64,000 bases of DNA from Knoellia koreensis (GTDB lineage: Bacteria > Actinomycetota > Actinomycetes > Actinomycetales > Dermatophilaceae). The notes below the pieces were generated by a model that saw nothing but the letters and a program-made list of their open reading frames with translations, was not told where the DNA came from and ran no database searches. Positions 11,140 to 37,899 of the stretch are shown here, one piece after another (position 1 is the first letter of the stretch; every line of letters begins with the position of its first letter). The stretch is from contig NZ_JABEPQ010000002.1 in NCBI RefSeq assembly GCF_013041615.1, positions 434,001-498,000 of the forward strand, read 5' to 3'. The position numbers and the translations under genes are program-made.

Positions 11140-11814
11140 TCAGTCGTCGTCGCGCTCGAACCGGAAGCCGACACCGCGAACGGTCGCGATGTACCGCGGC
11201 TGTCCCGCGTCGTCGCCGAGCTTTCGCCGCAGCACCGAGATGTGCATGTCGAGGGTCTTGGTCGACCCGAACCACGCGGTCTCCCAGATCTCCCGCATCA
11301 ACTGCTCACGCGAAACGACCTTGCCCTGCTCGCGCACGAGCACCCGCAACAGGTCGAACTCCTTGGCGGTGAGCTGCAGCTCCTCGTCCTTGAACCACGC
11401 GCGCCGGCCCTCGGGGTCGATCCGCACCAGCTCGTTGGAGGCGGGCGCATCGGTCGGGTTGCGCCGCAGCAGCGCCCGCACCCGCGCCAGCAGCTCGGCC
11501 AGCCGGAACGGCTTGGTCACGTAGTCGTCGGCTCCGGCGTCGAGTCCCACCACGGTGTCGACCTCGTCGGCGCGCGCGGTGAGGATCAGGACGGGCACGG
11601 TGCGGCCCTCGGCGCGGATCCGCCGGCACACCTCCAGCCCGTCGACGTACGGCAGCCCGAGGTCGAGCACGACCAGGTCGGGGTTCTCCGCGGACGCCTC
11701 GAGGGCGGCCTTGCCGTCGGCGCGGACATCGACGTCATAACCCTCGCGGCGCAGTGCGCGCGCCAGTGGTTCGGAGATCGCGGGGTCGTCCTCGGCGAGG
11801 AGCACTCGGGTCAT
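11140..11814 (-). CDS. OmpR/PhoB-family response regulator
   Basis: 224 residues. Receiver domain with acidic pocket E8-D9-D10, phospho-acceptor Asp51 in 'LVVLDLGLPYVDG', and the conserved Lys in 'YVTKPFRLAELLARVRALLR'; C-terminal winged helix (about 130-224) with the PhoB-like 'LTAKEFDLLRVLVREQGKVV' and 'TLDMHISVLRRKLGDD'. It would be phosphorylated by the kinase encoded downstream and bind direct-repeat operators. ATG 11814 is preferred over a TTG six codons upstream. The target regulon cannot be read from this window. Confidence 0.93.
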   Translation of the reverse strand: MTRVLLAEDDPAISEPLARALRREGYDVDVRADGKAALEASAENPDLVVLDLGLPYVDGLEVCRRIRAEGRTVPVLILTARADEVDTVVGLDAGADDYVTKPFRLAELLARVRALLRRNPTDAPASNELVRIDPEGRRAWFKDEELQLTAKEFDLLRVLVREQGKVVSREQLMREIWETAWFGSTKTLDMHISVLRRKLGDDAGQPRYIATVRGVGFRFERDDD

Positions 11815-11844
11815 GGGGGTGATCGTAGGCAAAACGCGGGGTCC

Positions 11845-17654: not shown

Positions 17655-17720
17655 GTCAACGACCTTCCATTTGGGTGACTTACCGACGTCAACGATCTTC
17701 CATTTGGGTGACTTACCGAC
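17655..17720 (+). repeat. 33-bp tandem repeat, two units (right copy)
   Basis: Two abutting units (17655-17687, 17688-17720) that are the reverse complement of those at 16592-16657, with two mismatches over 66 bp. The right end overlaps the last bases of the MOSC gene (stop at 17713), so that gene's C-terminus is encoded partly by repeat DNA. Either end of the DUF559 gene is thus about 10-65 bp from a repeat. Confidence 0.9.
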
Positions 17721-18381
17721 GGGTGCGGGTGGCCACCATGGCGCGCAGCTCGGCGGCCTCGGTCTCGTTGAGGCAGTCGGCGGCCAGGACCTCCCGGGCC
17801 GCGTCGAGGTCGCCCATGAACGCGCGGAACGCGACCGGAACGCTCACCCCGTGGTCGGGGCGCGAGCGCACGACCACCGCGTCACCGGGGCGGATCGTCC
17901 CCGGCGCCACCACCGACAGGTAGGCGCCCGTGCGACCTGCGTCGCTGAACCGCTTGACCCAGCCTCGCTCCCCCATCCGCGCGGCAAAGGTCGAGCACGG
18001 GATCCGCGGGCCCTCCACCCGCAGGACCACCTCGTCGCCGATCGCCCAATCCTCGCCGAGCACTGCGCCATCCACGTCGAGTCCGGACGTCGTGAGGTTC
18101 TCACCGAACATGCCGTCGGGAAGGTCGCGGCCCAGCTCGCGCGCCCACCAGTCGAGCTCCTCACGCGCGAACGCGTAGACCGCCTGCGTGTCGCCACCGT
18201 GGTGCTTCGTGTCCGCGATGAAGTCGCCCACGACCCCGCTGCCGAGCCCCCCACGCTTGGGCCCCGGCGCGCGCACCTCGACCGACCGCGCCGGCACCTT
18301 GCCGATCCCGGTCGTCCCCACCTTCTTGGCCGCGTTGGGCTGGGGCGACCCGACGTTGACGGACAGCACCTTCCCGGACAT
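17713..18381 (-). CDS. MOSC domain protein (YiiM-like)
   Basis: 222 residues with the MOSC beta-barrel pattern: 'GLGSGVVGDFIADTKHHGGD-TQAVYAFAREELDWW', 'GMFGENLTTSGLDVDGAVLG' and the conserved cysteine in 'VEGPRIPCSTFAARMG', the expected molybdenum-cofactor ligand; a helical 3-alpha-like tail (about 160-222) resembles YiiM. Such proteins reduce N-hydroxylated compounds or carry Mo-cofactor sulfur. ATG 18381 has TAGGGT seven bases upstream, fitting leaderless expression. Its last codons overlap the 33-bp repeat. Divergent from the DUF885 gene. Confidence 0.85.
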   Translation of the reverse strand: MSGKVLSVNVGSPQPNAAKKVGTTGIGKVPARSVEVRAPGPKRGGLGSGVVGDFIADTKHHGGDTQAVYAFAREELDWWARELGRDLPDGMFGENLTTSGLDVDGAVLGEDWAIGDEVVLRVEGPRIPCSTFAARMGERGWVKRFSDAGRTGAYLSVVAPGTIRPGDAVVVRSRPDHGVSVPVAFRAFMGDLDAAREVLAADCLNETEAAELRAMVATRTRR

Positions 18382-22911: not shown

Positions 22912-24258
22912 CTATGGAGCAGCGTCACCCACACGACTCGGTGAGCGCAGCGCCACTGCGAGCACACCCGCCGCGACCATCGCCGCACCGACGACCCACA
23001 GGCCCGTCTTCTGGCTGCCGGTGAGGTCGGCGAGCCAGCCGGTGATGTAGGGCGCGGCGAAACCGGCGGTGTTGCCGACGGAGTTGACCAGGGCGATGCC
23101 GCTCGCCGCGGCGGCCCCCGTGAGGAACGCGGTCGGCAGCGCCCAGAACGTCGGCAGTGCACACATGACGCCCACCGCGCAGACGGTCACGGCGACCATT
23201 GCTGTCACCGGGCTGCCGAGGTAGAGCGCCACGGGGATGGCGGCCCCACCGATGATGGCGGGCAGCGCGACGTGCCACGTGCGCTCACCGGTGCGGTCGC
23301 CATGGCGAGCCCACAGGAGCATCGCGACTGCGCCCACGGCATACGGGATGGCATTGATGAGCCCGCGCTCGAGGAGCGTGTAGCTCGTCCCGAACTGCTT
23401 CTCGAAGCCCTTGATGATGGTCGGGAGGAAGAAGCCGAGGGCGTAGAGGCCGTAGACGATCCCGAAGTAGACGAAGGCGAGCGCCCACACCCGCGGCCGC
23501 GTCAGGGACTGACGGATCGACACGTGGTAGCGCGCCTTCTCGGCATCGTCCTCGTCGAGCGCGCGCACCAGGGCGTCGCGTTCGTCGTCGGGCAGCCACG
23601 CAGCATCCTGCGGCCGGTCGGTGAGGAAGAACCACGTGACGACACCGAGCAGGATGGCGGGGATGCCCTCGAAGAGGAACATCGTGCGCCACCCGCTCAT
23701 GCCGAACAGCCCGTGGCCGTAGTCGATCAACAGCGACGACAGCGGCGCGCCGATGGCCGACGACAACGGGATCGCAGCCATGAAGAGCGCCGTCATGCGG
23801 GCCCGGTCGCGCTGCGGGAACCAGAAGGTCAGGTAGAGGATGATGCCTGGGAAGAAGCCAGCCTCGGCCACGCCCAGCAGGAAGCGCAGTGCCACCAGCC
23901 AACCGGCGTTCGGCACGAAAGCCATTGCGGCAGCAACGATTCCCCATGTCACGAGGATGCGGGCGATCCACCGGCGCGCCCCGAACCGGTGCAGTGCCAT
24001 GTTGCTCGGCACCTCCAGCAGCAGGTAGCCGATGAAGAACACCCCAGCCGCGAACCCGAACGCCTTCGCGGTGAGGCCGAGCTCGTCGTTCATGCCGTTC
24101 GGGCCGGCGAAGCCGATGTTGGTGCGGTCGAGGTAGTTGACGAGGTAGAGCAGCGCGAGGAAGGGCGTGAGCCTGCGCGCGACTCGTCTGGTGGCGCGGG
24201 CCAACGTCGCGTCGTGACTGTCGTATGCCGCGTGGTCGCCTGCCGTCGTCGTGGCCAT
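22912..24258 (-). CDS. MFS transporter, anion:cation symporter (ACS) family
   Basis: 448 residues and 12 predicted helices from ATG 24258, preceded by GAGGAG. ACS-family blocks are 'LTPFLALLYLVNYLDRTNIG', 'FGFAAGVFFIGYLLLEVPSN', 'RFLLGVAEAGFFPGIILYLT', and 'PLSSAIGAPLSSLLIDYGHG'. Relatives import organic acids such as phthalates, tartrate, hexuronates or 4-hydroxyphenylacetate by proton symport. No catabolic genes adjoin it, so the substrate is open. Divergent from the small membrane protein/regulator pair across 140 bp. Confidence 0.9.
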   Translation of the reverse strand: MATTTAGDHAAYDSHDATLARATRRVARRLTPFLALLYLVNYLDRTNIGFAGPNGMNDELGLTAKAFGFAAGVFFIGYLLLEVPSNMALHRFGARRWIARILVTWGIVAAAMAFVPNAGWLVALRFLLGVAEAGFFPGIILYLTFWFPQRDRARMTALFMAAIPLSSAIGAPLSSLLIDYGHGLFGMSGWRTMFLFEGIPAILLGVVTWFFLTDRPQDAAWLPDDERDALVRALDEDDAEKARYHVSIRQSLTRPRVWALAFVYFGIVYGLYALGFFLPTIIKGFEKQFGTSYTLLERGLINAIPYAVGAVAMLLWARHGDRTGERTWHVALPAIIGGAAIPVALYLGSPVTAMVAVTVCAVGVMCALPTFWALPTAFLTGAAAASGIALVNSVGNTAGFAAPYITGWLADLTGSQKTGLWVVGAAMVAAGVLAVALRSPSRVGDAAP

Positions 24259-24355
24259 CGGGTGCTCCTCGTGTCGTCGTCGGCCCCGGGCAGCCTTGCA
24301 CAGCACCTGCCTGATCGCCCGTTGTGGGGCGGTCCGTCGCGCCTCCCGTTACGGG

Positions 24356-24398: not shown

Positions 24399-24860
24399 AT
24401 GGACCACATGACTTCACAGCAGGCCAAGGCCCAGCTCGCCGCAGCGCAGGCGACAGAGGTCACCACCACCCACGACCGCCGCGTGCACGGGCTGGCGACA
24501 GCCGGGTTCGGCGTGGCGATGGGCGCCTATGTCGCGGTGCAGCGAGTCGTGGACGGCACCAGCGCCGAGACACCGCTACTTGCCGTCTACGCCATCGCCC
24601 TGCTCGGCCTCGTCACCTGGCAGACCCGGGCGGCCCGCAGCGTGCCGCGCTCCTCGCGACTGGTCGGCTACGTCGGGCTCGCCGGGTCGTTCGTGCTCAT
24701 GATGGCAACCATCATGTGGCTCAACATCCGTGGCACCGGACGGCTCGGCGGCGTCGAGGGCCAGCCGGAGTCGTGGGGCGTCCTGCTCCTCGCCGGAGTC
24801 GTCATCGCCCTGCCGATGCTGGTCGCCGGGGTGCGCATCCTGCGCGGCGGCACCCGGTGA
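24399..24860 (+). CDS. Small integral membrane protein of unknown function
   Basis: 153 residues. A polar N-terminus (about 1-30, Ala/Gln-rich) precedes four predicted helices, including 'LLAVYAIALLGLVTW', 'YVGLAGSFVLMMATIMWLNI' and 'WGVLLLAGVVIALPMLVAGV'. I do not recognise a functional family. The stop overlaps the start of the downstream regulator by four bases, a gene pair repeated in many actinobacteria where a small multipass membrane protein precedes a PF13601-type regulator. Transcribed from the TTGACA/TAGAGT promoter just upstream, probably leaderless. Confidence 0.75.
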   Translation: MDHMTSQQAKAQLAAAQATEVTTTHDRRVHGLATAGFGVAMGAYVAVQRVVDGTSAETPLLAVYAIALLGLVTWQTRAARSVPRSSRLVGYVGLAGSFVLMMATIMWLNIRGTGRLGGVEGQPESWGVLLLAGVVIALPMLVAGVRILRGGTR

Positions 24861-25183
24861 CCGCACCCACGCAGCCCGCGGGCAGCACCAGCGGGCACGC
24901 GCGGCACCAGCTGGACGAGGTCATCCACGCACCCGTGCGGTTCAGCATCGTGGCAGCCCTCGCCAGCGCCGACGAGGCCGAGTTCGCAGCGGTTCGCGAT
25001 GCCGTCGAGGTGTCGGACTCCGTTCTCTCCAAACAGGTCTCGACGCTCGAGGCGGCCGGCTACGTCAAGGTCCGCAAGGGCTACGTCGGCAAGCGCCCAC
25101 GCACCTGGCTCAAGCTCACGCGAGCCGGCCGCGCGGCATACGACAAGCACCTCGCCGCCCTGCGCGCCATCGCCGGCGCCTGA
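24857..25183 (+). CDS. Winged-helix transcriptional regulator (PF13601/MarR-like)
   Basis: 108 residues from GTG 24857. It shows a compact winged helix: 'LDEVIHAPVRFSIVAALASA', recognition region 'VSDSVLSKQVSTLEAAGYVK' and wing 'RKGYVGKRPRTWLKLTRAGR'. This is the single-domain DNA-binding type often encoded beside a membrane protein. It probably represses its own operon through the AAGTACTT palindromes near 24.36 kb; that link is inferred. Last gene before the CRISPR island; an imperfect long hairpin follows the stop. Confidence 0.83.
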   Translation: MTAPTQPAGSTSGHARHQLDEVIHAPVRFSIVAALASADEAEFAAVRDAVEVSDSVLSKQVSTLEAAGYVKVRKGYVGKRPRTWLKLTRAGRAAYDKHLAALRAIAGA

Positions 25184-25199
25184 CGCACTTCGCCCGTTC

Positions 25200-25280
25200 G
25201 AGGTAATTGGCTACCGCATGATGGTCTGTCTTCGGAAGTCCCTTCAGAAGTCAGACCCGATGCTGGTCGCCGATTACCTC
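25200..25280. other. Long imperfect hairpin element
   Basis: Nested inverted repeats: outer GAGGTAATTGGC/GCCGATTACCTC (one mismatch), inner GGTCTGTCTTC/GAAGTCAGACC (one mismatch), giving an interrupted stem of about 36 bp over 81 bases. It starts 17 bases after the regulator stop, so it may terminate that transcript, but its size and AT content also suit a MITE-like relic or structured RNA at the island border. Confidence 0.5.
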
Positions 25281-25293
25281 AAACCGGCGACTC

Positions 25294-25353
25294 TCAGACG
25301 GGGGGTATGCCGCGGCGCTTGGCGGAGAAGTGGCGGTCACGCCCGCGGGCGTA
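25294..25353 (-). repeat. Left direct repeat of the CRISPR island (copied 3' end of a carboxyltransferase gene)
   Basis: Sixty bases matching 36277-36336 at 58 positions. It encodes the last 19 codons and stop of the carboxyltransferase gene at 36277-37899, ending in the residues SAKRRGIPPV. Both mismatches are synonymous, so this copy derives from a functional allele. Homology stops at the stop codon on one side and about a Tyr codon on the other. It behaves like an attachment-site or recombination duplication. From 25354 to 25428 I see nothing recognisable. Confidence 0.85.
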
Positions 25354-25428
25354 ACCAACTCGGCGGGGCCCACAACATGCACAGTGACGTCAGGCAAAGC
25401 TCGCTGCTCCTGGGACTCGGACTCCACC

Positions 25429-27282
25429 GGATGATCCCCGCGCTCGCGGGGACAACCCGGTGCCCGGCTCGGGCGCGGTGCCGGTCGGGGGATGATCCCC
25501 GCGCTCGCGGGGACGACACGTTCGGCCCCCGCCAGTCCGAGCGTGGCACGGGATCATCCCCGCGCTCGCGGGGACGACAACCGCAGCGGGATCTGCGACC
25601 AGCCGTCACGCGGATGATCCCCGCGCTCGCGGGGACGACATGCTCATCGTCGGCGCCGTCGCCGTCAGCAACGGATGATCCCCGCGCTCGCGGGGACGAC
25701 GGCCTGTCCGTCCTCGCCAGCCAGTTCGTGCTCGGATGATCCCCGCGCTCGCGGGGACGACACCCGGACCGTGCCGACGGTGAGGTGACCTTCGGATGAT
25801 CCCCGCGCTCGCGGGGACGACAAACCCTTCACCCACGACACGAGCTCCCCGAGCGGATGATCCCCGCGCTCGCGGGGACGACCGTGCGCGAGCGCTGGTC
25901 ACCGACCTCGCATGGGGATGATCCCCGCGCTCGCGGGGACGACCGCCCCGACGGGGTCGGCGCCACGGACGACGAGGGATGATCCCCGCGCTCGCGGGGA
26001 CGACGTGGACTGGCAGTCGCGACGCCGCGCAGAGAAGGGATGATCCCCGCGCTCGCGGGGACGACCGCTCGTCCTGGATGAACTGGACCGGCTTGCGCGG
26101 ATGATCCCCACGCTCGCGGGGACGACCTCACCCTCACCCGCGACGCGGACGACAAGCGGGGATGATCCCCGCGCTCGCGGGGACGACTCGGTGGCCGAGA
26201 ACTGGCTGTCCGCGCCGAGCGGATGATCCCCGCGCTCGCGGGGACGACATGACGCCGCGCCCGGCCCTGGTGCGCTGGTGCGGATGATCCCCGCGCTCGC
26301 GGGGACGACACGTCCAAGGCCGACGTCGGACCGGGCAAGTTCGGATGCCCGCGCTCGCGGGGACGACTCGTCGTAGGCGATGTCGTCGAGCCAGTACGTG
26401 GGATGATCCCCGCGCTCGCGGGGACGACCTCACCAACCACGGCCAGCAGAAGGCCGCCATCGGATGATACCCGCGCTCGCGGGGACGACTCGATCTCGTG
26501 CTCCGCGGCTTCGTGCAACGCCGGATGATCCCCGCGCTCGCGGGGACGACGCCTGCCCGTCGGGGCAGGTGTAGGTGCCGGGCGGATGATCCCCGCGCTC
26601 GCGGGGACGACATCGGGGGCACATCGGCCATCGGTCAGGCGCCCGGATGATCCCCGCGCTCGCGGGGACGACGGGTACAGGGCAGCCCACGCTTCGAGCA
26701 GCGACGGATGATCCCCGCGCTCGCGGGGACGACCACTCGATGCGCGGGTGGGTGAGGCCGTACTCCGGATGATCCCCGCGCTCGCGGGGACGACCACTCG
26801 ATGCGCGGGTGGGTGAGGCCGTACTCCGGATGATCCCCGCGCTCGCGGGGACGACTTCCTCCAGAGCAAGGGCTACAACCCGACGCACGGATGATCCCCG
26901 CGCTCGCGGGGACGACGGCACCCCTGTTCAACCGCCCGTCGAGGCCGACGGATGATCCCCGCGCTCGCGGGGACGACTGCACGGTCACCGGCACCTCCTG
27001 GCCGGGAGGCGGATGATCCCCGCGCTCGCGGGGACGACCTCTTCGACGAGCGCCCACAGGGCGGCGGCGGCGGATGATCCCCGCGCTCGCGGGGACGACT
27101 TCTGCACTTCGGCGAGGATCGCGTCGAGGGTCGGATGATCCCCGCGCTCGCGGGGACGACTACGCCTCGGTGGTGGTGCCGAGAGGCCAGCGCGGATGAT
27201 CCCCGCGCTTGCGGGGACGACGGAAGCAGACGTGCTCGATCAGCACCACGTCCTGGATGATCCCCGCGCTCGCGGGGATCAC
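25429..27282 (-). CRISPR. Type I-E CRISPR array, 31 repeats and 30 spacers
   Basis: The 28-bp repeat contains the palindrome ATCCCCGCGCTCGCGGGGA; spacers are mostly 33 bp (61-bp period). Read on the minus strand the repeat has the E. coli-like polarity (GTCGTCCCCGCG to GGGGATCATCC), co-oriented with the cas genes. Repeat starts run from 25429 to 27255. Variants: 25429 (GACAAC end), 25551 (GGATCATCC), 26099 (CCCCACGC), 26343 (three bases lost), 26462 (GATACC), 27194 (GCTTGC), 27255 (GATCAC end). The unit beginning at 26706 is duplicated at 26767 with an identical spacer. No AT-rich leader separates the array from cas2. Confidence 0.97.
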
Positions 27283-27579
27283 ACTTGCTGACCAGGCAGT
27301 TTCCCGACGTTGACGCGCCACCAGCATCAGTCCATCGAAGTCGACCGGTGACCACCCTTCACGACCGGCTGTGCGAATTGCCCAGCCTTGCTCCGTTACC
27401 GCGGGTTCGATCATGACCACTTGCCCATCCCTGATCCGCTCCGACAGCAGCAGCCAGAGACGGTCGCGCATTCGACGGCTGAGTTCGCCGACGAAGACAC
27501 CGGCCTGGACCTCGATCATCCACCGGGTCAGGTGGCCTCGCAGCCCTGGCGGGGCTGCGACCATCACGATGACAGTCAC
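27160..27579 (-). CDS. cas2: Cas2e, reading through into the CRISPR array
   Basis: Cas2 of the type I-E kind: 'MTVIVMVAAPPGLRGHLTRW', 'VQAGVFVGELSRRMRDRLWL', 'VVMIEPAVTEQGWAIRTAG' and 'PVDFDGLMLVARQRRE' cover the whole normal domain (about 92 residues, 27579 to about 27300). There is no stop codon at the expected place: the frame continues through the terminal repeat and further into the array, adding about 45 junk residues (139 in total). Cas2 pairs with Cas1 to integrate spacers. Its start overlaps the cas1 stop by four bases. The fusion suggests a deletion that removed the cas2 end and leader. Confidence 0.85.
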   Translation of the reverse strand: MTVIVMVAAPPGLRGHLTRWMIEVQAGVFVGELSRRMRDRLWLLLSERIRDGQVVMIEPAVTEQGWAIRTAGREGWSPVDFDGLMLVARQRRETAWSASVIPASAGIIQDVVLIEHVCFRRPRKRGDHPRWPLGTTTEA

Positions 27580-28570
27580 CAGTCGACCGGATACTCGGGG
27601 ATATCTGGACCCGTGACCGTTGCGTACCCATGGACGTTCAACTCCTCGAAGCCGCTCCAGTTCATACCACCTGCAACCGTCCCTCCGACGTCCTCCCAGA
27701 GCAGGTTGCGATCCAGCTGGTCTTGCGGCTCCGACGAGTCGCCCATTATGAGATCGAAGATGTCGTCGACTACGCGCTTCATGAAGCGCGTCTCCCGAAA
27801 ATGATCTCGCGTCGCCAGGCGCACATCATCTTCCTCGACCATCTCTTGAGCAACCAGATCGAACGCAATCGGAATGGAGTAGTCGGCCTTGTACAGATCG
27901 GCGATGTCGAGAACGAACGACAACGCTCCGCCCGTGTGCACGAACCCCAGTGCTGGACTGGCTCCCACGCCAACTACGGCGGCGTGGCAGGCGGCATACA
28001 GGCAGGCGTGTGCCGCCGAAAGGGCCCGGTTGATGTCATCTCCCGCCTCAAATGCTTCGCCCGGCCGGTAGCTTCGCTTGGCCCACGGAACACCAGACCT
28101 TTTGCTCTCTGCGCGGTAGATTCGCTTGACGCGGCCCCCTTCCTTGCCTCGCAGCTGCTGCATGGTTGCCGAACTCACGTCCTCACCGGAAACCGCATCG
28201 CATACATCCGCCGCGCTACGGCAAGGCGTTCAGTCACATGAGACGCAAGGTGAGCCTGGCGGATCACGAGGTCGGCCCCACGTGAGGGACCAAGCCCCGC
28301 GGCATACATCCGCACCCCGTGCTCGCCCACCCAGCTGACAGCCGTGCCTGAGTCGGCCAACAGCCGCATTGCACCGTGCGTGACGCGCGATCCCGGACCA
28401 AGCATGAGCGCCGCGACATAGCCGGCCGGGACGCGCACCGTGCGCTCCTTGTTGATGATCACGACAGCGTTCTCGGCGCGGTCGACATGGCTCTTCTCCA
28501 CGTAGAGAGTCGAGATGCGATCGCTGACCCGGTGCAGGTCGAGCGGTTCAGCGATCCACCACATGGCCAT
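27576..28570 (-). pseudogene. cas1: cas1e, split by a single-base frameshift
   Basis: Two overlapping reading frames together make one Cas1e. 28175-28570 gives the N-terminal 131 residues ('DRISTLYVEKSHVDRAENAV' to 'RRMYAMRFPVRT' stop); 27576-28178 gives the C-terminal 200 with all catalytic residues: Glu in 'QLRGKEGGRVKRIYR', His in 'GFVHTGGALSFVLDIADLYK', and its Asp pair. Adding one G to CCGGTGAGG near 28183 restores the continuous reading MRFPGEDVSSATMQQLRG, matching E. coli Cas1. So either a real inactivating deletion, a sequencing error in a G run, or much less likely a frameshift programme. Overlaps cas6e upstream by 23 bases. Confidence 0.85.
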
Positions 28571-29294
28571 TCACCGGCGCCAACGTCAACAACCCGCACC
28601 CGTAGGCCTTCCCGCGCCCCAGCCCCCCGACCAGGACCTCGCGCAAACGATCCGCATCCGTCACGATAAGCCGTCCTTCAAAAGTCGCCCGATCCAGCGT
28701 GACTTTGTGCCTGGTTTCTCGCCCCTTGGAAAACGAAATATGTTCTCGCGCAACGAGACTCACGTGGGGATGGTCTTCATCACCTAGGACGGCAAAGCCC
28801 CATGCGGTGTCGTCTTCCCGTGTGCGTGCCAGGAACCATTCAAGTTGGTGCCCAGCCGTTCGATGCGCCACTCGTATGCCGCGTCGCCGCAGCCCGTCGT
28901 CCAGCGCCTTGCGTTGCGCAGCGGTCGGGCTCTGAGGCTTCGCGACGGAGGTCGTGGGGTTGGCTCGGACCCGGAAGCCGAACTCGCGACCATCGACCAC
29001 CAGGTCGAGCAATGGGTCGAGACTGCGGACGAGGGGCGCCCCCTCGGGTGTCGCCCAACCTGCTTGCTCGACGAGGTGGGACCAGTCAGGCATCTGCGGT
29101 GTCAGCACCAGCAACTCGGGTCGAGCCGGCCCAGCCACCTCCCCCTTGGTCACCTCGTCTCGCCAGAGGACGCGCCCGGATGACCCCGGCGGCATGCCTC
29201 CGAGCACGGCCGCATGAGTGCGTTGCGGGTTGGCCAGGAGACGCTGCGTGCCCTGTCGGAGCGGATTCAGCTGGATCTTCGAGAGATAGGGCAT
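28548..29294 (-). CDS. cas6e: Cas6e/CasE crRNA endoribonuclease
   Basis: 248 residues with the two ferredoxin-like folds of CasE. The N-terminus 'MPYLSKIQLNPLRQGTQRLL' is typical, followed by the candidate catalytic His27 in 'NPQRTHAAVLGG'. The C-terminal glycine-rich loop 'VGGLGRGKAYGCGLLTLAP' is the RAMP hallmark. It cuts pre-crRNA at the 3' base of the repeat hairpin and stays bound to the mature crRNA in Cascade. Intact; three-base gap from cas5e. Confidence 0.92.
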   Translation of the reverse strand: MPYLSKIQLNPLRQGTQRLLANPQRTHAAVLGGMPPGSSGRVLWRDEVTKGEVAGPARPELLVLTPQMPDWSHLVEQAGWATPEGAPLVRSLDPLLDLVVDGREFGFRVRANPTTSVAKPQSPTAAQRKALDDGLRRRGIRVAHRTAGHQLEWFLARTREDDTAWGFAVLGDEDHPHVSLVAREHISFSKGRETRHKVTLDRATFEGRLIVTDADRLREVLVGGLGRGKAYGCGLLTLAPVNGHVVDR

Positions 29295-29297
29295 TGC

Positions 29298-30080
29298 TCA
29301 CCAACCCAGCAGCGCGAATGGGTCATGGTCCCGAGCATCGGCTGACCCGTCCCTGCCGTCGGTCAACGTCACCCAGCCGTGCTGCACCCGACGAGAGACC
29401 ATCTGCCGTCGCTGCGGGTCGAAGGAGACCGGAACGTCACTCACGACGTCCATTCCCTCGGGGTCGTCGACGGTGTAGGCCATCGACGCGACCCCGTTCT
29501 GGCGATTTTGCCATGACTCGGATGCCTGCCAGGGCACGGCGAGAACCACCTCGGCCGCTGCTCCGGGCCAGATCGACTCCCCATCGGGGTTGTCATTCCG
29601 GGTCACGAGGAGCGGCCGAGCTGGCGGACACGAGCGACGACCAAGCGCCAGGGGGTAGGCCGGGCGGAGCACCGCCAACGCCAGATCCTCGAGGAGTTGG
29701 CGCGGGCCCTCGACGACGGCCACAAAGACCGCGTCCTGGACGTAGTACCGGCTCGTGACGTGGGTGAACTTCTTAGGGGATGTCGATGTCTGCCGGCCTT
29801 TCGCGTTGGTGCTTGCGCTCAGCAGCGGGACGCCTCGAATATCACTGACGGTGTGGTAGTCGCGTAGGAGCGAGCCTGGCTGGTCCACGCGAACCGCGAG
29901 CCGCAAGCCGACAAGGTCCTCGATCGAGTCAGCTCGTCGCCTCCCTTGCGCCGCCGCGAGCAGCCCGATCACCCCGGACTTGGTCGGCCGGTCCTGCGTC
30001 TCTCGACGGTTGAACTGGCTGCGGGCACCCCACGACTGCAAAGGCCCCGCGAGTCTGAGCACCAAGGAGGTCTCAGCCAT
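29298..30080 (-). CDS. cas5e: Cas5e/CasD Cascade subunit
   Basis: 260 residues. The Cas5 N-terminal signature 'LVLRLAGPLQSWGARSQFNR' and 'RPTKSGVIGLLAAAQGRRR' are plain, followed by 'SLLRDYHTVSDIRGVPLLSA' and 'RYYVQDAVFVAVVEGP'. Cas5e caps the 5' handle of the crRNA in Cascade. Intact; its start overlaps the cas7e stop by eight bases. Confidence 0.93.
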   Translation of the reverse strand: MAETSLVLRLAGPLQSWGARSQFNRRETQDRPTKSGVIGLLAAAQGRRRADSIEDLVGLRLAVRVDQPGSLLRDYHTVSDIRGVPLLSASTNAKGRQTSTSPKKFTHVTSRYYVQDAVFVAVVEGPRQLLEDLALAVLRPAYPLALGRRSCPPARPLLVTRNDNPDGESIWPGAAAEVVLAVPWQASESWQNRQNGVASMAYTVDDPEGMDVVSDVPVSFDPQRRQMVSRRVQHGWVTLTDGRDGSADARDHDPFALLGW

Positions 30081-31182
30081 CGCGGCCGCCAGCGCTCACG
30101 CTCTCCGTCACGCGAGTGACGAGGTCCGGCAGAGACGTGCTTTCACCGAATGCTTCCGTGAGGGCGCTGTCACCATTGCCCGACGCGGCATACGAAGCCA
30201 CGAGCAGTCGTGGCTCGTCACCCCATCGCTCAGCCTCAGAACGGTGATGGCGCGCGAGCCGCTCCAGGGACGCGCCCATGTAACCCGTGCTGTGCCCGTC
30301 TTCGAACCGCGGTCGGACCGGCGATTCGAAGGCGCTGACCAGACTGACCGGTTGGTCGTCGCGCACCTCCACCAAGACCAACGCCGGACGCGTGTGCGCC
30401 GCGAACGTGTTCTGCTTGCCGGTCGGCATGGACTGCACGAAGGACTCGATGAACTGACCGATGCCTGCAATGGCTTCTTCACGATCGCCCATGTTCTCCA
30501 CGAGCTGCTCGACACCGACGACGGCATATCGGTAGAGCGTCCCTGAGTTGAACTCGACCGTTCCGATCATGCCAGCGCCGGCTTCGTCCTTCTCCTGCTG
30601 GTCGTCGACCGCCGTGAAGTAGTCGAACTGCGTCGGGGCGGCATGGGTTGAGATCGCGTGGGCGACCTGGGCGGCTGCATCCACGTTGAGCTGCGTCATG
30701 TCGGCCACCATGCGACCGAAGAGCGCGACGTCGAGTGGGTGGGTCGACCCCAGGATCTCTGCGGCATCGACGGACTTGGCATCGGCGCCATCCGCGGCCA
30801 GTGCATCGGCGAGTTCCTCGAGCTGCCTGCGCCCGGCGAAGAGCAGGTACGAGGACTGCGCCTCGTTGTTCCTGTCAGGCGTGATCTTGAGGGTGCCGAG
30901 CGATTCCTTGGCCAGCGCTTTGGCTGCCTCGTGGTCTTTGCCTCGATCCTCGAGGGCCTTGGTGAGTATGCCGTGGAGGCGTCGCGTGCGAATGCCCTGA
31001 GCGTCACGGTCCATCCGTTCGCGAAAGTGCATCCGGGTGGCCCTTTTCCATGCCTGAGACGAGACCCGCAGGCGGTCTACGCCACCGTAGACCGCCTGCT
31101 TGGGCGTTCCGTTGTCGTCACGGTTCAGGTTGGCCGGCGGCACATCCTGGAGCACGTGCACGCAGACATAGGTGTTGCTCAT
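30073..31182 (-). CDS. cas7e: Cas7e/CasC Cascade backbone subunit
   Basis: 369 residues from ATG 31182, overlapping the cse2 stop by four bases and preceded by GGAAAGGAAC. Family blocks: 'NTYVCVHVLQDVPPANLNRD', 'GVDRLRVSSQAWKRATRMHF', 'FGRMVADMTQLNVDAAAQVA' and 'EFNSGTLYRYAVVGVEQLVE'. Six copies would form the crRNA-binding filament of Cascade. Apparently intact. Confidence 0.93.
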   Translation of the reverse strand: MSNTYVCVHVLQDVPPANLNRDDNGTPKQAVYGGVDRLRVSSQAWKRATRMHFRERMDRDAQGIRTRRLHGILTKALEDRGKDHEAAKALAKESLGTLKITPDRNNEAQSSYLLFAGRRQLEELADALAADGADAKSVDAAEILGSTHPLDVALFGRMVADMTQLNVDAAAQVAHAISTHAAPTQFDYFTAVDDQQEKDEAGAGMIGTVEFNSGTLYRYAVVGVEQLVENMGDREEAIAGIGQFIESFVQSMPTGKQNTFAAHTRPALVLVEVRDDQPVSLVSAFESPVRPRFEDGHSTGYMGASLERLARHHRSEAERWGDEPRLLVASYAASGNGDSALTEAFGESTSLPDLVTRVTESVSAGGRDG

Positions 31183-31790
31183 AACGGGCCGTTCCTTTCC
31201 GAAGAGTCTGGTGTTGAAGGCTTGGCTGATCCGGGCTTGCGGAAGTAGTCGGCGCCGAGACGCCGTCGCACCCGCAAGCGCCCGTGCGGGCGTTGCCACG
31301 ACAGGAAGTCGCGCGTCAGCGCGGTGTAGTCCAGGCCTTGAGGCTGTGGCAGCGTCTTAAGCATCGTGACGAGAGAGCGCAGGTGATGGGCGAACTCGTC
31401 CAGCGAGTCGGCCGTAGCGCACTGAGCCACCCGCCGATCGAGGGCCGACTCGCTGTAGCGCCCTGATTCCCGCAGGGCCCGCAATGCCTCCCCGAGTCGG
31501 ACTCCGGGTCGATGCATGGGTGAGGTCTGGCTCTGCTGGTGCACGCCGAAGAGGGCGAGGGCATGATGCTCGGCGCGAAGCTCGGGGCTCACCGACCCGT
31601 CTGGTCGGAAAGTGGTGTACATCGGCCACATCAGGGGGATGCTGCCCGGTTCTGCCCCCACCCCTCGCCGCAGTGCTGCAAGGTCCTGACCCGGTGGGAC
31701 GCCACCCCCCTTCTCGGGCCGGCGCTCCCAGTACGGGGGGGCGACGCCTCCGTCCGTGCTCGACACTGCATTGTCGCTGTCGACGGTCAT
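31179..31790 (-). CDS. cse2: Cse2/CasB Cascade small subunit
   Basis: 203 residues, an alpha-helical CasB/Cse2 protein: 'YWERRPEKGGGVPPGQDLAA' then 'LRRGVGAEPGSIPLMWPMYT' (the LRRG-x5-G core), 'EHHALALFGVHQQSQ', and C-terminal 'YTALTRDFLSWQRPHGRLRV'. Two copies normally span Cascade and stabilise the displaced DNA strand. Overlaps the degraded cse1 end by four bases and cas7e by four. Confidence 0.9.
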   Translation of the reverse strand: MTVDSDNAVSSTDGGVAPPYWERRPEKGGGVPPGQDLAALRRGVGAEPGSIPLMWPMYTTFRPDGSVSPELRAEHHALALFGVHQQSQTSPMHRPGVRLGEALRALRESGRYSESALDRRVAQCATADSLDEFAHHLRSLVTMLKTLPQPQGLDYTALTRDFLSWQRPHGRLRVRRRLGADYFRKPGSAKPSTPDSSERNGPL

Positions 31791-33387
31791 GAGCGGACCT
31801 CCTCTAACTGGATCTCGCGCTGCGGAGCAGATGCCGGCAGTACCTTGTTGAGTTTGCTGCGAAAGAACGCCTCGGCGTTCTGCTGACGGACGGGCCGGTC
31901 AGGGTCATGGCCGAGAAACGCTGCAGGGGCAACGTTATTCAGCAGGGGATCGGCGAAGCTCCACGCGTGCGCCCGCAGAATCTGCTCCCATGCCAAAGGG
32001 GCATCCGACACTTTCGTCGGATCCTCAGCAAGACCTACCAACGCACGCATGGCGTGCGCCGCGACGGCACCCAGGAACAGCTCGCCGATGCGTTGCCCCG
32101 GTCCCACGGGAGCTTCTCTCCCCCCACTGCCCGCCGCAAGTCGTCGCCGAGATCATTCAGGGCTTTGGCGACGTCGTCGGCTTGGCGCGCCATCAGATGC
32201 AGCCACTCACGCGCCGGCCCCCCGGCCTAGCGATCCAAAGCGATCACCGGGAGGGGCGTCCGATCGCTGATGACGTCCTCGATGACAGCCGACTGGTTGC
32301 CATACTCAACCCCGACCAGGTGGACCGAGATCGGGTGATCCAGCGGTAGGACGCCGTTGTTCACCAGTTGCTCCATCTGGTCGATGACACCTGCGACGGG
32401 AGAGCGCTCACCCCCCACGTCCGCTCCCGTGAGCAGGGCCGCCAGGCCGCGCCAGGCCGCGCGCCCAGGCCGCAGGCGTCGGGGGCGCACTGCGGAGGAG
32501 CCTTTGTCCGGACGATTCCAGCCCGTGCGCTGCTCGACCCCTTGCGGCCGCGAGGACAGTCGATCACCGGCGGCTACGAGAACCTGAGGGATTCTGAGGT
32601 CTCCGTCGACGGTCACCGGATAGAGCCGGACACGCCTCGACTGCCACGTGTACAGGTCGAGCGTTCCCAACGGTTCCCGGCTCGCCCACGTCGCGTCGTG
32701 TTCGGCACGCCACGCAGGTCGATCTTCCTCGTGGACCTCACCAAGAGGAAGATTGAGCATCAGGGTCTCGAAGAGGTTCCGGCCAATGAGGGTGACAACA
32801 CCCAGCTGGCCCATGGCCCCGGTTGGGTTGCCGGTTGTTTTCCCGGACTTGACCTGGGGGTCATTCTTGGCGCCGCTCTTGATCGCCGCCGTGTCCCACG
32901 CGTGACAGGCGACCAGCCGTCGGGCAGCATCGGCCGGGCTGAGTGCCGGGGCGCTGGTCTCCGTGGCCGCTGCGAAGATCGGGACGTTGTTCCCTGTCGC
33001 AACCTCGGGCACCAACAAGGCCGCTGGCTTCGGGTTGCCGCTCGCGGGTTCGAGCCCGCCGACCTGGAAGAACGGATGATCCGGATGGAACAGGTCGAAG
33101 CGGGACGAGTGCTCGGCCCAATGCAGGTCAAAGGCTCCATCCGGGAACCGGCCAGCTGCCCAAAGCCGCGTGAAACCGGCCATGCCCTCGACCCGAAGCG
33201 CGTCCTTGACCACTGCGACGAGCAAACTGAGAATCGCACTTGCCTCGAGTGGATTGCCCCAGTCGAGGTCATCGATCGCCTCTGCCTCATCGAGCAGCAC
33301 CCTTAACGACACCGTGACAGGCCGACCAGCCCGCACGACCCTCAGCCAGGGCCTCTCGATCAACGAGAATTCAGGCTCCCCGGTCAT
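31787..33387 (-). pseudogene. cse1: cse1/casA, interrupted by an amber stop and a frameshift
   Basis: Starting at ATG 33387 after GAAGAGGTGA, the frame encodes 386 residues of the Cse1 N-terminal domain ('FSLIERPWLRVVRAG', 'LFHPDHPFFQVGGL', 'GVEYGNQSAVIEDVISD') and stops at an in-frame TAG (32227-32229). The same frame continues for about 44 further Cse1-like residues ('EWLHLMARQADDVAKALNDL') to about 32102, then homology moves to another frame, 31787-32107, which supplies the C-terminal helical bundle ('GQRIGELFLGAVAAHAMRAL' to 'PAAFLGHDP'). Total about 536 residues, normal for the family. Cse1 recognises the PAM and recruits Cas3, so loss should disable interference. Confidence 0.85.
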
Positions 33388-33409
33388 CGAGTCACCTCTT
33401 CGTGGTTCA

Positions 33410-36142
33410 TCAGCTCAACGTCCTCTCGATGACTAGGCCAATCTCCTCGTCGTAGGAGGCACTCCCCCACGCCCCGTACGCTCGGCCCTCAGCATCGAGG
33501 ACAAGGGCGGGGACGCTGCGGAGCAGATCGCTTCCGGCCCACCCTGGCAGGGGTGGAGGGCCCTCCGGCGTCTCGTGCAACCGCTCGGTCTGACGCACCC
33601 GCACCGTGTCCGCGAGAACCTCGCGAGCCAACCCGTCATGGTGAGCCCCTTCGCCAGTAGGCCCCAGCACGCGCCCTCCCAAAGTGGTATACCGCTGACG
33701 CTCTTCGTCCCAACGCACGAGCGCCACCTCTCGGCTCGGTTCGCCGTCGCGCACGGAGATGCGCTCTGGTCGGCGCTCGACACCCGTTGCAGCGTGGAGA
33801 CGATCGAGCGTGCGTCCGCCGTCGAGGGCATTGGGATCGGGCTGCAGAACACCTTCACTGGCCCGCAGACTGCGCTCGGCAGCTCGGGAGCGAGCCTCTG
33901 CCAGCGCCTCGCCGCCCTCGTTCTTCCAACCACCCGGCCATGGACCTGCCTCGTCGTATGCTGCCGACACCAGGCTCGGAATATCGCTCGGGATCGTCCA
34001 GGTCGCACCCGCCCCGATGAGCTGTGCGGTCCGCAGCAGCGAATAGCTGTCGTAGACGTAGCCGAATGCTCGCGGCATACGTGGCGGGCCCGACTCCACG
34101 GGAACGCAACCAGTCACCACGACCTTCGGTGCCGCCAGATGAGCTGGGCGCCCGGCGTCGTTGTCCTTATGCCGGTGCAGCCGCCCGATGCGTTGCAGCA
34201 GCAGGTCCATCGGTGCGATGTCGGTGACCAACACGTCAGCGTCGACGTCAAAGCTCTGCTCGGCAATCTGGGTGGCCACCACGATCTTGCGCTTCGGCCG
34301 GCGCGAGGATCCGCTACCCAGCTCGGCGACGAGGTGTCTTGTCCGGTCGGCTCGCGCCCCGGTGGTCAACCGCCCGTGCAGAAGGGTCGGGTGGCCACCC
34401 TGATCACGGATTGCCGCATAAACCTCCTGAGCGCGGCGGACAGTGTTGAGCACGACGAGGACGCACCCTCCATCCTTGCCTTGCTGCCCAACAACATCCG
34501 CGATTGCTGCAGTGTCGTCTGGATCGGCTATTCCGGCCCACAAGACCGCGACCTTTTTGCCCGTGGACATGGGTTCCGCGGACGAGGTGGTGACACCGTC
34601 GACAGGGTTCCAGCTCGTGATGCACGGATAACCGGAGCTGGGGGGCACTTCGGTCTCGAGGCCTCTCTCCAACCCTTCGGCATAGGCCGCAAGAAGAGCC
34701 TGTCGCTGGGCAGGAGGCAGGGTTGCGCTCATCAGCACGACAGGGATTCTCCCGTCGCCGCACCAGCGCAGGAGCTGCTCGAGGTAACGGCTCATGAACA
34801 CGTCGTAGGAGTGGACCTCGTCGATCACGATGACCTTGCCAATCAGACCGGCATACCGCAGGGACACGTACTTCACCTGGGTCGCAGCCATGAGTGGTTG
34901 GTCGACGGTCGCCACGATGCACGGCGACAAGAGCCCCCGGTGGCGGCCGAGGAGCCACTCGGCTGGCGCCGCAGCTGGCGAGCCCGGGACGCGGCTGTTC
35001 GTGGCGAGCCCGTAGTCGTCGTCCCCGACGTCGCAGACGTCGTTCAGAAACACCGGAGCCAGCTGCTCGCGCCAAGCCTCGTTAGCCATCGCCTTGCCAT
35101 GGTTGAGCGACACGATCGGCTGACTGTCGAGTGTCCTGGACCAGGCCCTGCACCGGTCGTACATGGCGTCGGTCGTGCCCTGGGTCGGCATCGCGAAGAG
35201 GAACCCGTCATAGCCAAATCGCGCAGCCATGACCTCGACCGCCGCCAGAGCCGCCTCAGTCTTGCCTTCACCCATCGGCCCCTCGACGATGAGCAGACCT
35301 GGGGCGCTCATGCGTTCAGCCACGTCGACCACCATCTGTTGCAGTGGACGCGGTGGGACGCCGAACCGCTCGCGGAAGGGCGCCGTTACTCCCGGGAAAG
35401 ACGTCCTCCCCGCGAGCCCGAGCGAGAGCCACGCCGCGCGAGCCCGTGCCCGGGCGTCATCGACAGTCATCGGCTCGTCACCCATACCCGGGAAGAGGGA
35501 GGAGCTCGCAATCCAGTCGGCCATGGAGACCCACCCAGCAGCCGCGAGCTGCAAAGCCCGCGGTGGTGTATCCAGAGCCAGAGAGCCCACATCGACGCCG
35601 AACGCGTCGGCGACGCCGCCGGCCAGTGCGTCCTGTCCCGCGAGCCACGTGGCCGCAGCAGCAGACTCGCCCTGCTGCCAGACGCTCCCCTGGTATTGCC
35701 GCAGGGACCACAGCAAGAAGGAGCCGTGATGGCCGTGAATGATGGGGAGCAACCACTCGAACCCGCTGGCACCGGCGGCTGACAGGACTCGCTGTGCAAT
35801 GAGACACCCGCTGGCACCATGTTTGAGCGGCACCCGGGTGTGTGGTGGCATCGTCCAACCGACTCGGGCAGCACTCTCGGCGAGCGCCGAGACCTGCGCC
35901 TGAAAGGCGGGCGTGGCCTTCCCGAGGTCGTGCCAGGCGCAGAGCAGGACCAGCACATCTCGTCCTCGGCCCGCACACCGCTCGTTCAGAGCACGACGCG
36001 AGGCGGGCGCCATGAACTCGTCCCAGATCAGCTCACCGACGGCGCCGCTATCCAGGAGATGCCCGGGCAGCGAATGCGTGCGCCCGGCAGCGTCAGACTT
36101 GGCCCAGAGCGACCACGGTGTCGCTCCCCCTCCATGGAGCAT
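33410..36142 (-). CDS. cas3: Cas3 nuclease-helicase (type I-E)
   Basis: 910 residues from ATG 36142. The frame extends 41 codons further up, but those codons lie in a terminator hairpin, and a -35/-10 pair sits just before ATG 36142. Order: HD nuclease domain (His23/His28 region 'RTHSLPGHLLDSGAV', His71-Asp72 'CAWHDLGKATPAF', 'HGHHG' at 136-140, Asp209), SF2 helicase with Walker A 288-294 'GPMGEGKT', DEVH box 441-444, SAT motif 472-474, and C-terminal helicase half with 'GRLTTGARADRTRHLVAELG' and 'RIGRLHRH'. It degrades DNA flagged by Cascade. Intact, unlike cse1 22 bp downstream. Confidence 0.93.
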   Translation of the reverse strand: MLHGGGATPWSLWAKSDAAGRTHSLPGHLLDSGAVGELIWDEFMAPASRRALNERCAGRGRDVLVLLCAWHDLGKATPAFQAQVSALAESAARVGWTMPPHTRVPLKHGASGCLIAQRVLSAAGASGFEWLLPIIHGHHGSFLLWSLRQYQGSVWQQGESAAAATWLAGQDALAGGVADAFGVDVGSLALDTPPRALQLAAAGWVSMADWIASSSLFPGMGDEPMTVDDARARARAAWLSLGLAGRTSFPGVTAPFRERFGVPPRPLQQMVVDVAERMSAPGLLIVEGPMGEGKTEAALAAVEVMAARFGYDGFLFAMPTQGTTDAMYDRCRAWSRTLDSQPIVSLNHGKAMANEAWREQLAPVFLNDVCDVGDDDYGLATNSRVPGSPAAAPAEWLLGRHRGLLSPCIVATVDQPLMAATQVKYVSLRYAGLIGKVIVIDEVHSYDVFMSRYLEQLLRWCGDGRIPVVLMSATLPPAQRQALLAAYAEGLERGLETEVPPSSGYPCITSWNPVDGVTTSSAEPMSTGKKVAVLWAGIADPDDTAAIADVVGQQGKDGGCVLVVLNTVRRAQEVYAAIRDQGGHPTLLHGRLTTGARADRTRHLVAELGSGSSRRPKRKIVVATQIAEQSFDVDADVLVTDIAPMDLLLQRIGRLHRHKDNDAGRPAHLAAPKVVVTGCVPVESGPPRMPRAFGYVYDSYSLLRTAQLIGAGATWTIPSDIPSLVSAAYDEAGPWPGGWKNEGGEALAEARSRAAERSLRASEGVLQPDPNALDGGRTLDRLHAATGVERRPERISVRDGEPSREVALVRWDEERQRYTTLGGRVLGPTGEGAHHDGLAREVLADTVRVRQTERLHETPEGPPPLPGWAGSDLLRSVPALVLDAEGRAYGAWGSASYDEEIGLVIERTLS

Positions 36143-36149
36143 GCCCTGG

Positions 36150-36178
36150 ATACTGGCACCGGCACACGACAACGTCCA
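36150..36178 (-). promoter_or_regulatory. Predicted cas3 promoter (leaderless)
   Basis: On the minus strand TGGACG (rc of 36173-36178) and CAGTAT (rc of 36150-36155) are spaced by 17 bp, and CAGTAT is seven bases from ATG 36142, the same geometry as other leaderless genes here. It lies downstream of the strong hairpin that should stop transcription from the neighbouring carboxyltransferase gene, so the cas operon would have its own promoter. Confidence 0.5.
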
Positions 36179-36222
36179 CCGCAAGCCTGCGCCCCGGCCG
36201 GCGGTTGCCCACTTCTCCACTG

Positions 36223-36272
36223 GAGTTGTGTGGGTGAGCACGCGCCATGACGCGTGCTCACCCACACAACTC
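36223..36272 (-). terminator. Perfect 22-bp-stem hairpin after the carboxyltransferase gene
   Basis: Arms 36223-36244 and 36251-36272 are exact reverse complements around a six-base loop (CCATGA), four bases past the carboxyltransferase stop. It is one of the strongest hairpins in the window and lacks a T run. It isolates the cas operon from the gene it adjoins. The copied gene end at 25294 has no such hairpin beside it. Confidence 0.8.
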
Positions 36273-36276
36273 GAGA

Positions 36277-36336
36277 TCAGACGGGGGGTATGCCGCGGCG
36301 CTTGGCGGAGAAGTGGCGGTCGCGTCCGCGGGCGTA
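36277..36336 (-). repeat. Right direct repeat of the CRISPR island (native gene end)
   Basis: The partner of 25294-25353 (58/60 identical), forming the real 3' end of the carboxyltransferase gene including its stop. Together the copies delimit about 11 kb that contains the complete CRISPR-Cas locus and no other genes. Confidence 0.85.
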
Positions 36337-37899
36337 GCGGAGCCGGTGAAGGAGCTCGTCGCGCAGCACGTCGGCCTCGATGATCTGGTCGATGACGAGG
36401 TCGGCGGCGAGGCGCTCAAGGTCGACGTCCTCCTCGTACTCGGCCCGCATCTGGGCGACGAAGGCGTCCCGCGCCTCGGCGCCCTTCTCGGCCTCGATCG
36501 CTGCGATCTTGTTGGCGTACACAGCATTCACGGCCGCCTCGGGACCCATGACGGCGATCCGTGCGGTCGGTAGAGCAATGGTCGCGTCCGGCCCGAATCC
36601 CGGGCCGCCCATGGCGTAGAGCCCGGCACCGTAGGCCTTGCGCACCACGACGCAGAACTGCGGCACGGTCGCCGACGACACGGCCGAGACCATCTTGGCG
36701 CCGTGCCGGATGATGCCGCCGCGCTCGACCTCCGACCCGATCATGAACCCCGGCACGTCGGCGAGGTAGATCAGCGGGATCGAGTAGGCGTCACACATCC
36801 AGATGAAGCGGGCGGCCTTGTCGGCGCTGTCGGTGAACAGCACGCCACCCTTGACCATCGAGTTGTTGGCCACGATGCCGACCGTCTCCCCCGCCATCCG
36901 CCCGAACCCCACGACGAGCTCGGGGGCGAACAACGGCTTGACTTCGAAGAACGACTCGTCGTCGACCAGCCCGTCGATGACCTCGTGGATGTCGAAGGGC
37001 TGGCTCTCGCGCTCGGGCACCGTGTGCCGGGTCAGCGGCGCGGCCGGCTCCTCCGGCGCATAGGTCGGCAGGTCGCTGTGGAAGTTCTGCGGCAGGTAGG
37101 AGAAGAACAGTCGCGCCATCTCGATGGCTTCGGTGTCGTCGTCGACGAGCAGGTCACCGACGCCCGAGACGGTGCAGTGCATCCGCGCACCGCCCATCTC
37201 CTCGAGCGAAACCTTTTCTCCCACAACCATTTCCGCCATGCGCGGGCTGCCGAGGTACATCGACGCGTTGCCGTCGACCATGATGACGATATCGGTGAAG
37301 CTCGGGATGTAGGCGCCACCCGCAGCCGAAGGCCCGAACAGGCAGCAGATCTGCGGCACCTTGCCCGACAGCGCGACCTGGTTGTGGAAGATGCGCCCAG
37401 CGCCGCGCCGCCCGGGGAACATCTCGACCTGGTCGGTGATTCGCGCCCCCGCCGAGTCGACGAACCAGAAGACCGGCAGCTCCTCACGCAGCGCCATCTC
37501 GGTGGCCCGCACGATCTTCTCGACCGTCCGCGCGCCCCATGAACCAGCCTTGACCGTAGGGTCGTTGGCAATGACGATCGCCGGCCGCCCGTCGACCGTC
37601 CCCCGTCCCGTGACGACGCCGTCGGCCGGCAGGCCCGGCGCCATTGCGTTGGCGAACCGCCCGTCCTCGACAAAGCTCCCCTCGTCGAAGAGCAGCGCGA
37701 TCCGGTCGCGCACATAGAGCTTGCCCTGACTGTCGAGCTTCGCCTTCGCCTTCTCAGGAGGCAGTGCCGAGGCGTCGTATGCCGCCGCGAGCCGGCCGCG
37801 CACGTCCGTCACCTTCGCGTCGGAGCCGGAGTCGCCGCCCGTGGCAAATGGTGCGGCGCTGGCAGGTGAGGCGGTCTCGGAAGGTGAGGTCACCGGCAT
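36277..37899 (-). CDS. Acyl-CoA carboxyltransferase beta subunit (second paralogue)
   Basis: 540 residues, distinct from the accD at 14.7 kb. Carboxyltransferase signatures: 'FWFVDSAGARITDQVEMFPG', 'QICCLFGPSAAGGAYIPSFT', 'IYLADVPGFMIGSEVERGGI' and 'RKAYGAGLYAMGGPGFGPDA', ending 'SAKRRGIPPV'. The SAGARI/GAGLYAM forms resemble methylcrotonyl- or other branched-chain acyl-CoA carboxylases. Upstream on the same strand lies an acyl-CoA dehydrogenase (46-bp gap), which supports a branched-chain acyl-CoA catabolic role. No alpha subunit adjoins; it must borrow one, perhaps that at 48.3 kb. Its 3' end is the island target site. Confidence 0.9.
   Translation of the reverse strand: MPVTSPSETASPASAAPFATGGDSGSDAKVTDVRGRLAAAYDASALPPEKAKAKLDSQGKLYVRDRIALLFDEGSFVEDGRFANAMAPGLPADGVVTGRGTVDGRPAIVIANDPTVKAGSWGARTVEKIVRATEMALREELPVFWFVDSAGARITDQVEMFPGRRGAGRIFHNQVALSGKVPQICCLFGPSAAGGAYIPSFTDIVIMVDGNASMYLGSPRMAEMVVGEKVSLEEMGGARMHCTVSGVGDLLVDDDTEAIEMARLFFSYLPQNFHSDLPTYAPEEPAAPLTRHTVPERESQPFDIHEVIDGLVDDESFFEVKPLFAPELVVGFGRMAGETVGIVANNSMVKGGVLFTDSADKAARFIWMCDAYSIPLIYLADVPGFMIGSEVERGGIIRHGAKMVSAVSSATVPQFCVVVRKAYGAGLYAMGGPGFGPDATIALPTARIAVMGPEAAVNAVYANKIAAIEAEKGAEARDAFVAQMRAEYEEDVDLERLAADLVIDQIIEADVLRDELLHRLRYARGRDRHFSAKRRGIPPV

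Follow-up and report, generated by a model that had tools for sequence, protein, structure and literature searches.

CRISPR-Cas systems have been described on chromosomal islands of Vibrio, where GI-24 and VPI-6 (types I-E / I-F) bring such a system into the chromosome, end in attL and attR, are missing in other strains, carry an integrase and had their excision assayed (PMC6360697). The same report mentions an 85-kb region of V. harveyi with an I-E system for which an integrase or transposase was not identified. In Streptococcus suis, a variable defence locus holds CRISPR-Cas in some strains at a fixed chromosomal place where other defence systems alternate (PMC5398294); the main text of that report, at least, never uses the term "direct repeat". 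The subject of this work is a type I-E module of the actinomycete Knoellia koreensis, contained in a stretch of 64,000 nucleotides (the window, to which all positions refer unless stated otherwise). It lies between two 60-bp copies of the 3′ end of an acyl-CoA carboxyltransferase gene (accD will be used as shorthand), at a chromosomal site where no cas genes were found in relatives. In contrast to the Vibrio islands, CRISPR-Cas alone is present, with no integrase recognised, and, unlike in S. suis, the site showed no alternative cargo.

Gene gain at the boundary of core genes without a mobility gene has been described for integrase-less hotspots, in which recombination occurs in the flanking core genes, and 27% of the hotspots in that report were without the integrases and transposases searched for (PMC5635113). 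An earlier, sequence-only reading of the locus had considered integrase-less gain an unusual route for a CRISPR-Cas module, an opinion at odds with this figure. By our own reasoning, a clean double crossover would give no duplication of a gene end, whereas one end of the present locus is a partial gene. A homologous join at one end and an illegitimate join at the other are the hallmark of homology-facilitated illegitimate recombination, shown with small linear DNA in the laboratory (PMC3240628); its application to an 11-kb natural case is our own extension. At the level of titles and opening lines of abstracts, the literature searches brought up no CRISPR-Cas locus enclosed between two carboxyltransferase gene ends.

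The Direct Repeat and the Carboxyltransferase Gene

The left copy (25294..25353, minus strand) and the right copy (36277..36336, minus strand) stand in direct orientation and agree, without gaps, at 58 of 60 bases. A query made of 120 bases from the end of the carboxyltransferase gene matched only these two places (E 2e-57 and 4e-22) in the organism's own genome, a 4.28-Mb assembly of 15 contigs (denoted G000) whose 1.1-Mb contig C8 contains the window. With the CRISPR array masked, five pairs of direct repeats in the window reach 28 bp and 85% identity or more; the four other than the 60-bp pair are a single family of 33-bp tandem units. Judged from these comparisons, the 60-bp repeat is not due to chance. 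The 33-bp unit (about GTCAACGATSTTCCATTTGGGTGGGTTACCGAC) is present in ~2 tandem copies at 17655-17725 and in ~4 at 51429-51562, 34 kb apart.

The right copy is the native 3′ end of a gene of 540 codons (36277..37899, minus strand), open throughout and ending in the stop codon at 36277-36279, while the left copy comprises only the final 20 codons, stop included. The repeat and the nature of its right copy had been correctly described from the sequence alone, as had the synonymous character, in the carboxyltransferase frame, of the two differences between the copies (GGA/GGG and CGC/CGT). From the latter a different functional allele had been concluded to be the source of the extra copy, and this step does not follow. 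The 60 bases allow 180 single changes, of which 47 are synonymous (19 of 60 when only transitions are counted), and two changes would both be synonymous with a probability of 0.07 for any change or 0.10 for transitions. Since chance yields such a pair in 7-10% of cases, the two differences do not demonstrate a functional-allele origin and are weak evidence for a second functional allele.

The copies resemble each other far more than either resembles the corresponding ends at 22 further loci from 21 genomes, with which they share 41-50 of 60 bases, and therefore both come from the organism's own lineage. The two differences do not reveal which of the copies would be resident by descent. The similarity between the copies stops at the stop codon, and it is also there that the match between the window and its congeners begins: at 36277 in eight of ten, and at 36274 and 36279 in the other two.

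An Empty Site in Related Genomes

The region downstream of the gene was compared at 90 accD loci, 89 of which have more than 200 bp of downstream sequence; L102, anchored at an incorrect stop, is useless for counts, and five genomes are present twice with identical sequence (L027/L108, L028/L114, L029/L112, L030/L110 and L032/L111). The gene that borders the left side of the module in the window encodes a MarR-like winged-helix regulator (Pfam HTH_34; 24857..25183, plus strand). Among the 89 loci, a match to this gene lies within 10 kb of the carboxyltransferase gene in ten, and in five of the relatives it begins only 31-121 bp away, in convergent orientation. These five are Phycicoccus sp. 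HDW14 (L047), P. avicenniae (L089), Janibacter melonis (L075), P. sonneratiae (L081) and a congener (L106). Their junction reads gene stop, hairpin (recognised by eye in four of the five) and MarR stop, and the left side of the window matches this order around its 60-bp fragment. An imperfect hairpin (25204..25287; fold z -5.1), terminator-like although its role is our interpretation, stands between the MarR-like gene and the left copy and is present once in the genome.

It follows from the closeness of the two genes in these relatives that an empty site with a single gene end exists, as the sequence-only reading had proposed should be sought, and from the shared order that the left copy sits in the ancestral junction. 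The regulator would thus be the ancestral convergent neighbour of the carboxyltransferase gene and, judged by gene order, the part that was moved, by 11 kb, is the intact gene, the left copy having stayed in place. The earlier view of the left copy as an isolated fragment and of the right one as native consequently needs to be amended: the right copy does belong to the intact gene, but the left one occupies the ancestral place. Taken together, the comparison makes it almost certain that the I-E module was inserted at the carboxyltransferase-MarR junction. The evidence for the empty site comes from relatives of other species, not from strains of K. koreensis.

In nine of ten congeners, DNA homologous to the window up to position 22862 reaches to 18-164 bp from the gene stop; in L106, a hypothetical and a MarR-like gene intervene, the latter ending 116 bp from the carboxyltransferase stop. 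The hypothetical gene corresponds to a small one in the window (24399..24860, plus strand), whose homologue is found near that of the MarR-like gene in 8 of the 89 loci. Six cas queries from the window gave no match downstream of the gene at these 89 loci, where a query for the neighbouring MFS transporter matched once, and a cse1 query gave none in the ten congeners. Each congener has one close full-length copy of the carboxyltransferase gene, plus one or two paralogues of 42-43% identity, at a strict limit that is blind to fragments. Neither a tandem duplication of the whole gene nor an ancestral presence of cas genes, the two situations that would have spoken against a gain, was therefore seen, although the left fragment may still derive from a whole tandem copy that was later deleted.

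Two further differences were observed in this neighbourhood. The MFS transporter gene (22912-24306) is unmatched at this place in the ten congeners, and in Knoellia remsis (L039) the order MarR-hypothetical-MFS is found downstream of the gene, with an MFS identity of 84%. The congener G010 (L115) contains, at about 7187-13736 of its locus, a 6.5-kb stretch between the homologues of window positions 20175 and 20252, which is unmatched in the part of the window compared (14000-41000).

Composition and Decay of the Module

All the cas genes are on the minus strand, and they can be followed from the right copy toward the left one. Directly 3′ of the carboxyltransferase stop there is a 56-bp hairpin (36220..36275), and 77 bp separate it from cas3 (33410..36142). 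Next come cse1 (cas8e), in two pieces (32227..33387 and 31787..32107), cse2 (31179..31790), cas7e (30073..31299, with the real start probably further in), cas5e (29298..30080), cas6e (28548..29294), cas1e, also in two pieces (28175..28570 and 27576..28178), and cas2e (27160..27579). The order cas3-cse1-cse2-cas7e-cas5e-cas6e-cas1e-cas2e is the canonical one of type I-E systems. Assignment to this type rests on Pfam and NCBIfam matches to all eight genes and on the array period of 61, and in 18 I-E loci of the family those genes that were found follow one another in this order. The array (25429..27282, minus strand) has 31 repeats and 30 spacers, one of them duplicated; the number of repeats was settled by hand, by adding to the 25 found by the script four imperfect ones recognised by eye and two that adjoin cas2. 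The identical spacers are neighbours, at 26734-26827. The cas2 frame has no stop ahead of the array and spans its first repeats, which leaves little space for a leader. Within the interval no non-cas gene was recognised, and four long frames on the opposite strand are without a Pfam match. The Rfam search of 24500-37000 gave nothing.

The locus had been called complete, and indeed all eight cas genes are recognisable; however, it is not intact. Comparison with the full-length Cse1 and Cas1 of two other loci (L152 and L153) reveals in cse1 an in-frame TAG (32227-32229), which terminates its 5′ piece, and a frameshift near 32092-32125, and in cas1 a frameshift near 28187, so that the effector and adaptation genes do not form a fully open set. 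As a control on neighbouring native DNA, 118 gene-like open reading frames (ORFs) from ten congeners were compared in the same manner; 11 were dropped because their match was absent or weak, and 14 of the 107 comparable ones were flagged for a stop or a split. Eight of these 14 were traced to antisense-like or upstream-of-start frames, two were judged likewise from their coordinates and four were left untraced. The lesions accordingly seem particular to the cas genes, with sequencing errors possible for the two indels. Given the damage to cse1 and cas1, the system probably neither interferes nor acquires spacers.

Foreign Origin of the Module

The composition of the module differs from that of its host, the GC content at third codon positions being 0.765 in six cas genes versus 0.924 in five host genes. 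Its distribution is equally patchy: cse1 was matched in 1 of 11 genomes of the genus, its own, and Cas7 in 20 of 186 genomes of the family, its own included, with the nearest others at 66% (G057) and 61% (G162) identity. At a strict limit, Cas7 was found in its own genome alone among 396 genomes of the order, and as G057 and G162 meet this limit they must have been unsampled or unscored there. Together with the empty sites of the relatives, these data support a horizontal acquisition of the module at the 3′ end of the carboxyltransferase gene, as had been suggested.

The search for a donor was less productive. Viral contigs gave no relative, and no integrase was detected among the 10 ORFs scanned in the flank of the nearest locus, L152. 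Spacer targets were unconvincing (the best match in phages, 31 bases at 93.5%, has E 0.01, and the best in the own genome E 0.02). The 73 bp between the left copy and the array (25354..25426), where similarity ends abruptly, appear to be the left edge of the acquired DNA, and comparison with the 18 I-E loci gave just one 14-base match. Repeats around these other loci were also sought (17 of 18 were testable, L163 having no flank), with hits in L154, L156, L158 and L161, none of them tied to the carboxyltransferase gene; the left-hand hits are spaced by 61, and hence array-like, in L158, L161 and partly L154, and L156 is ambiguous.

How the Module May Have Arrived

The explanation that we favour, with a probability of roughly 0.45, is recombination with chromosomal DNA of a close relative through a one-sided homologous join. 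The incoming DNA would have been a piece of a very close relative's chromosome, with the cas locus already placed behind the carboxyltransferase gene and its terminator hairpin. On the right side, it would have joined within the gene by RecA-type recombination; on the left side, its array-distal end would have joined inside the resident gene, 60 bp ahead of the end of the latter, by illegitimate recombination or through a subsequent deletion. Left behind in this way would be the final 20 codons of the resident gene, along with its hairpin and the MarR-like neighbour.

Recombination is preferred to site-specific integration because the right hairpin has relatives at ORF ends elsewhere in the genome and because the similarity between the copies stops at the stop codon. 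The hairpin at 36220-36275, for which a terminator role is presumed, belongs to a family of long, near-perfect hairpins (GTGTGGGTGAGC...GCTCACCCACAC) with four further copies in the genome (C8:691532, C1:1090108, C10:44681 and C8:937967), beside predicted ORF ends; in other genomes, one weak match was found in G004 and none in 13 more that were searched. The DNA beside the right copy accordingly looks chromosomal and of the organism's own species group, and such a flank is easier to reconcile with a closely related chromosome than with a phage or plasmid terminus.

Several observations weigh against this explanation. The left hairpin is outside the repeated family, which makes it uncertain which side is the resident one. 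Among the searched relatives, all of other species, no strain was found with the order carboxyltransferase-hairpin-cas and without the left fragment, and the carboxyltransferase gene is missing from the retrieved stretches of all 18 I-E loci of the family (from 19 matches outside the own genome). The gene showed no sign of a mosaic break, although a donor of the same species would leave none; when identity was followed in 120-bp steps, positions 1384-1503 of the gene were nearer to outgroups in K. koreensis and G010 than in other congeners, a pattern that was not used as G010 shares it. Finally, a repeated gene end together with a restored gene is the classic picture of islands made by an integrase.

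Site-specific integration, a possible though less probable course of events, would have brought in an element whose 60-bp attP equalled the 3′ end of the gene, with a tyrosine or serine integrase restoring the gene and displacing its old end, and with the integrase and other cargo being lost later. It accounts for the exact topology of the locus, that is, an intact gene at one end and a displaced 60-bp end at the other, next to the ancestral neighbour. As in islands of this type, there are direct repeats at both ends, one of which restores the 3′ end of a gene, and an empty site in relatives; CRISPR-Cas on integrase-bearing islands with attL and attR is documented as well (PMC6360697). An integrase, however, is expected inside, close to one repeat, and only cas genes were recognised. 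The genome has nine PF00589 and two PF07508 matches, none in the window and those on the same contig more than 500 kb away, and the nearest integrase noted in the congeners is a PF07508 match in G007, ~18 kb away on the 5′ side of the gene. Moreover, a mere 73 bp (repeat to array) and 134 bp (repeat to cas3) separate the repeats from the CRISPR-Cas genes and array. Nor does the locus show the transposase and short target-site duplication of a transposon, Tn7-like or other: no transposase was detected among the ORFs scanned inside, some short ones being outside the scan, and the repeat is 60 bp long.

A site used by an integrase might also be expected to hold other elements, and the sequence-only reading had recommended looking for different cargo there. 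None was found: no element with a repeated gene end occurs in the 82 loci with at least 1 kb downstream (1 to 16 kb, mostly ~10 kb, so that longer islands would be missed). With the last 120 bases as query, the best repeat of the gene end, 3.65 kb downstream in L034, agreed at 22 of 25 bases and was taken as chance. With a 243-base query from the left junction, seven of ten congeners gave a single match, located at the gene, and in the other three (G003, G005 and G009) the query is blind, as the gene's own end went undetected; extra matches of 22-23 bases in G008 and G004 (E 0.0025 and 0.0098) were again taken as chance. Nor was a free form encountered. The gene end was absent from phage records, its exact 33-base core from viral contigs, and plasmid records gave two short weak hits, both outside the 60-bp core.

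The lack of a plasmid match also bears on a third, rather improbable explanation, in which a circular replicon bearing both the gene and the module integrated by a single crossover, giving tandem gene copies, and the replicon backbone was later deleted together with the left copy except for 60 bp. RecA and one deletion would suffice, and the abrupt inner edge at 25353 would be accounted for; relatives of Cas7 do occur on plasmids (237 records), all below 60% identity. Against it, no backbone or further gene remnant was recognised.

It appears unlikely that a fragment was captured where a staggered break was being filled in, doubling 60 resident base pairs. The two differences would then be later drift in the dead left copy, which is possible given that both would be synonymous by chance with a probability of 0.07-0.10, but only luck would make the duplication end exactly where the stop codon does, and the presence, beside the right copy, of a hairpin from the genome's own family would be left without explanation. 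Even less credence is given to the idea that the module moves bare, without an integrase or transposase of its own, with a short copy of the 3′ end of a host gene serving as a mobile homology arm by which the gene is restored at the destination. Misassembly or contamination can practically be set aside, for, although the assembly has 15 contigs and two of the three cas lesions are indels, both sides run into sequence syntenic with congeners on a 1.1-Mb contig, the third lesion is a nonsense change, and completeness and contamination are 100 and 0.34.

Significance

The case alone points to no new route of transfer and has the appearance of ordinary horizontal gene transfer. What it offers is a gain of CRISPR-Cas with both edges defined at single-base resolution and with an empty counterpart in relatives, the genes for the effector and for adaptation now being broken.

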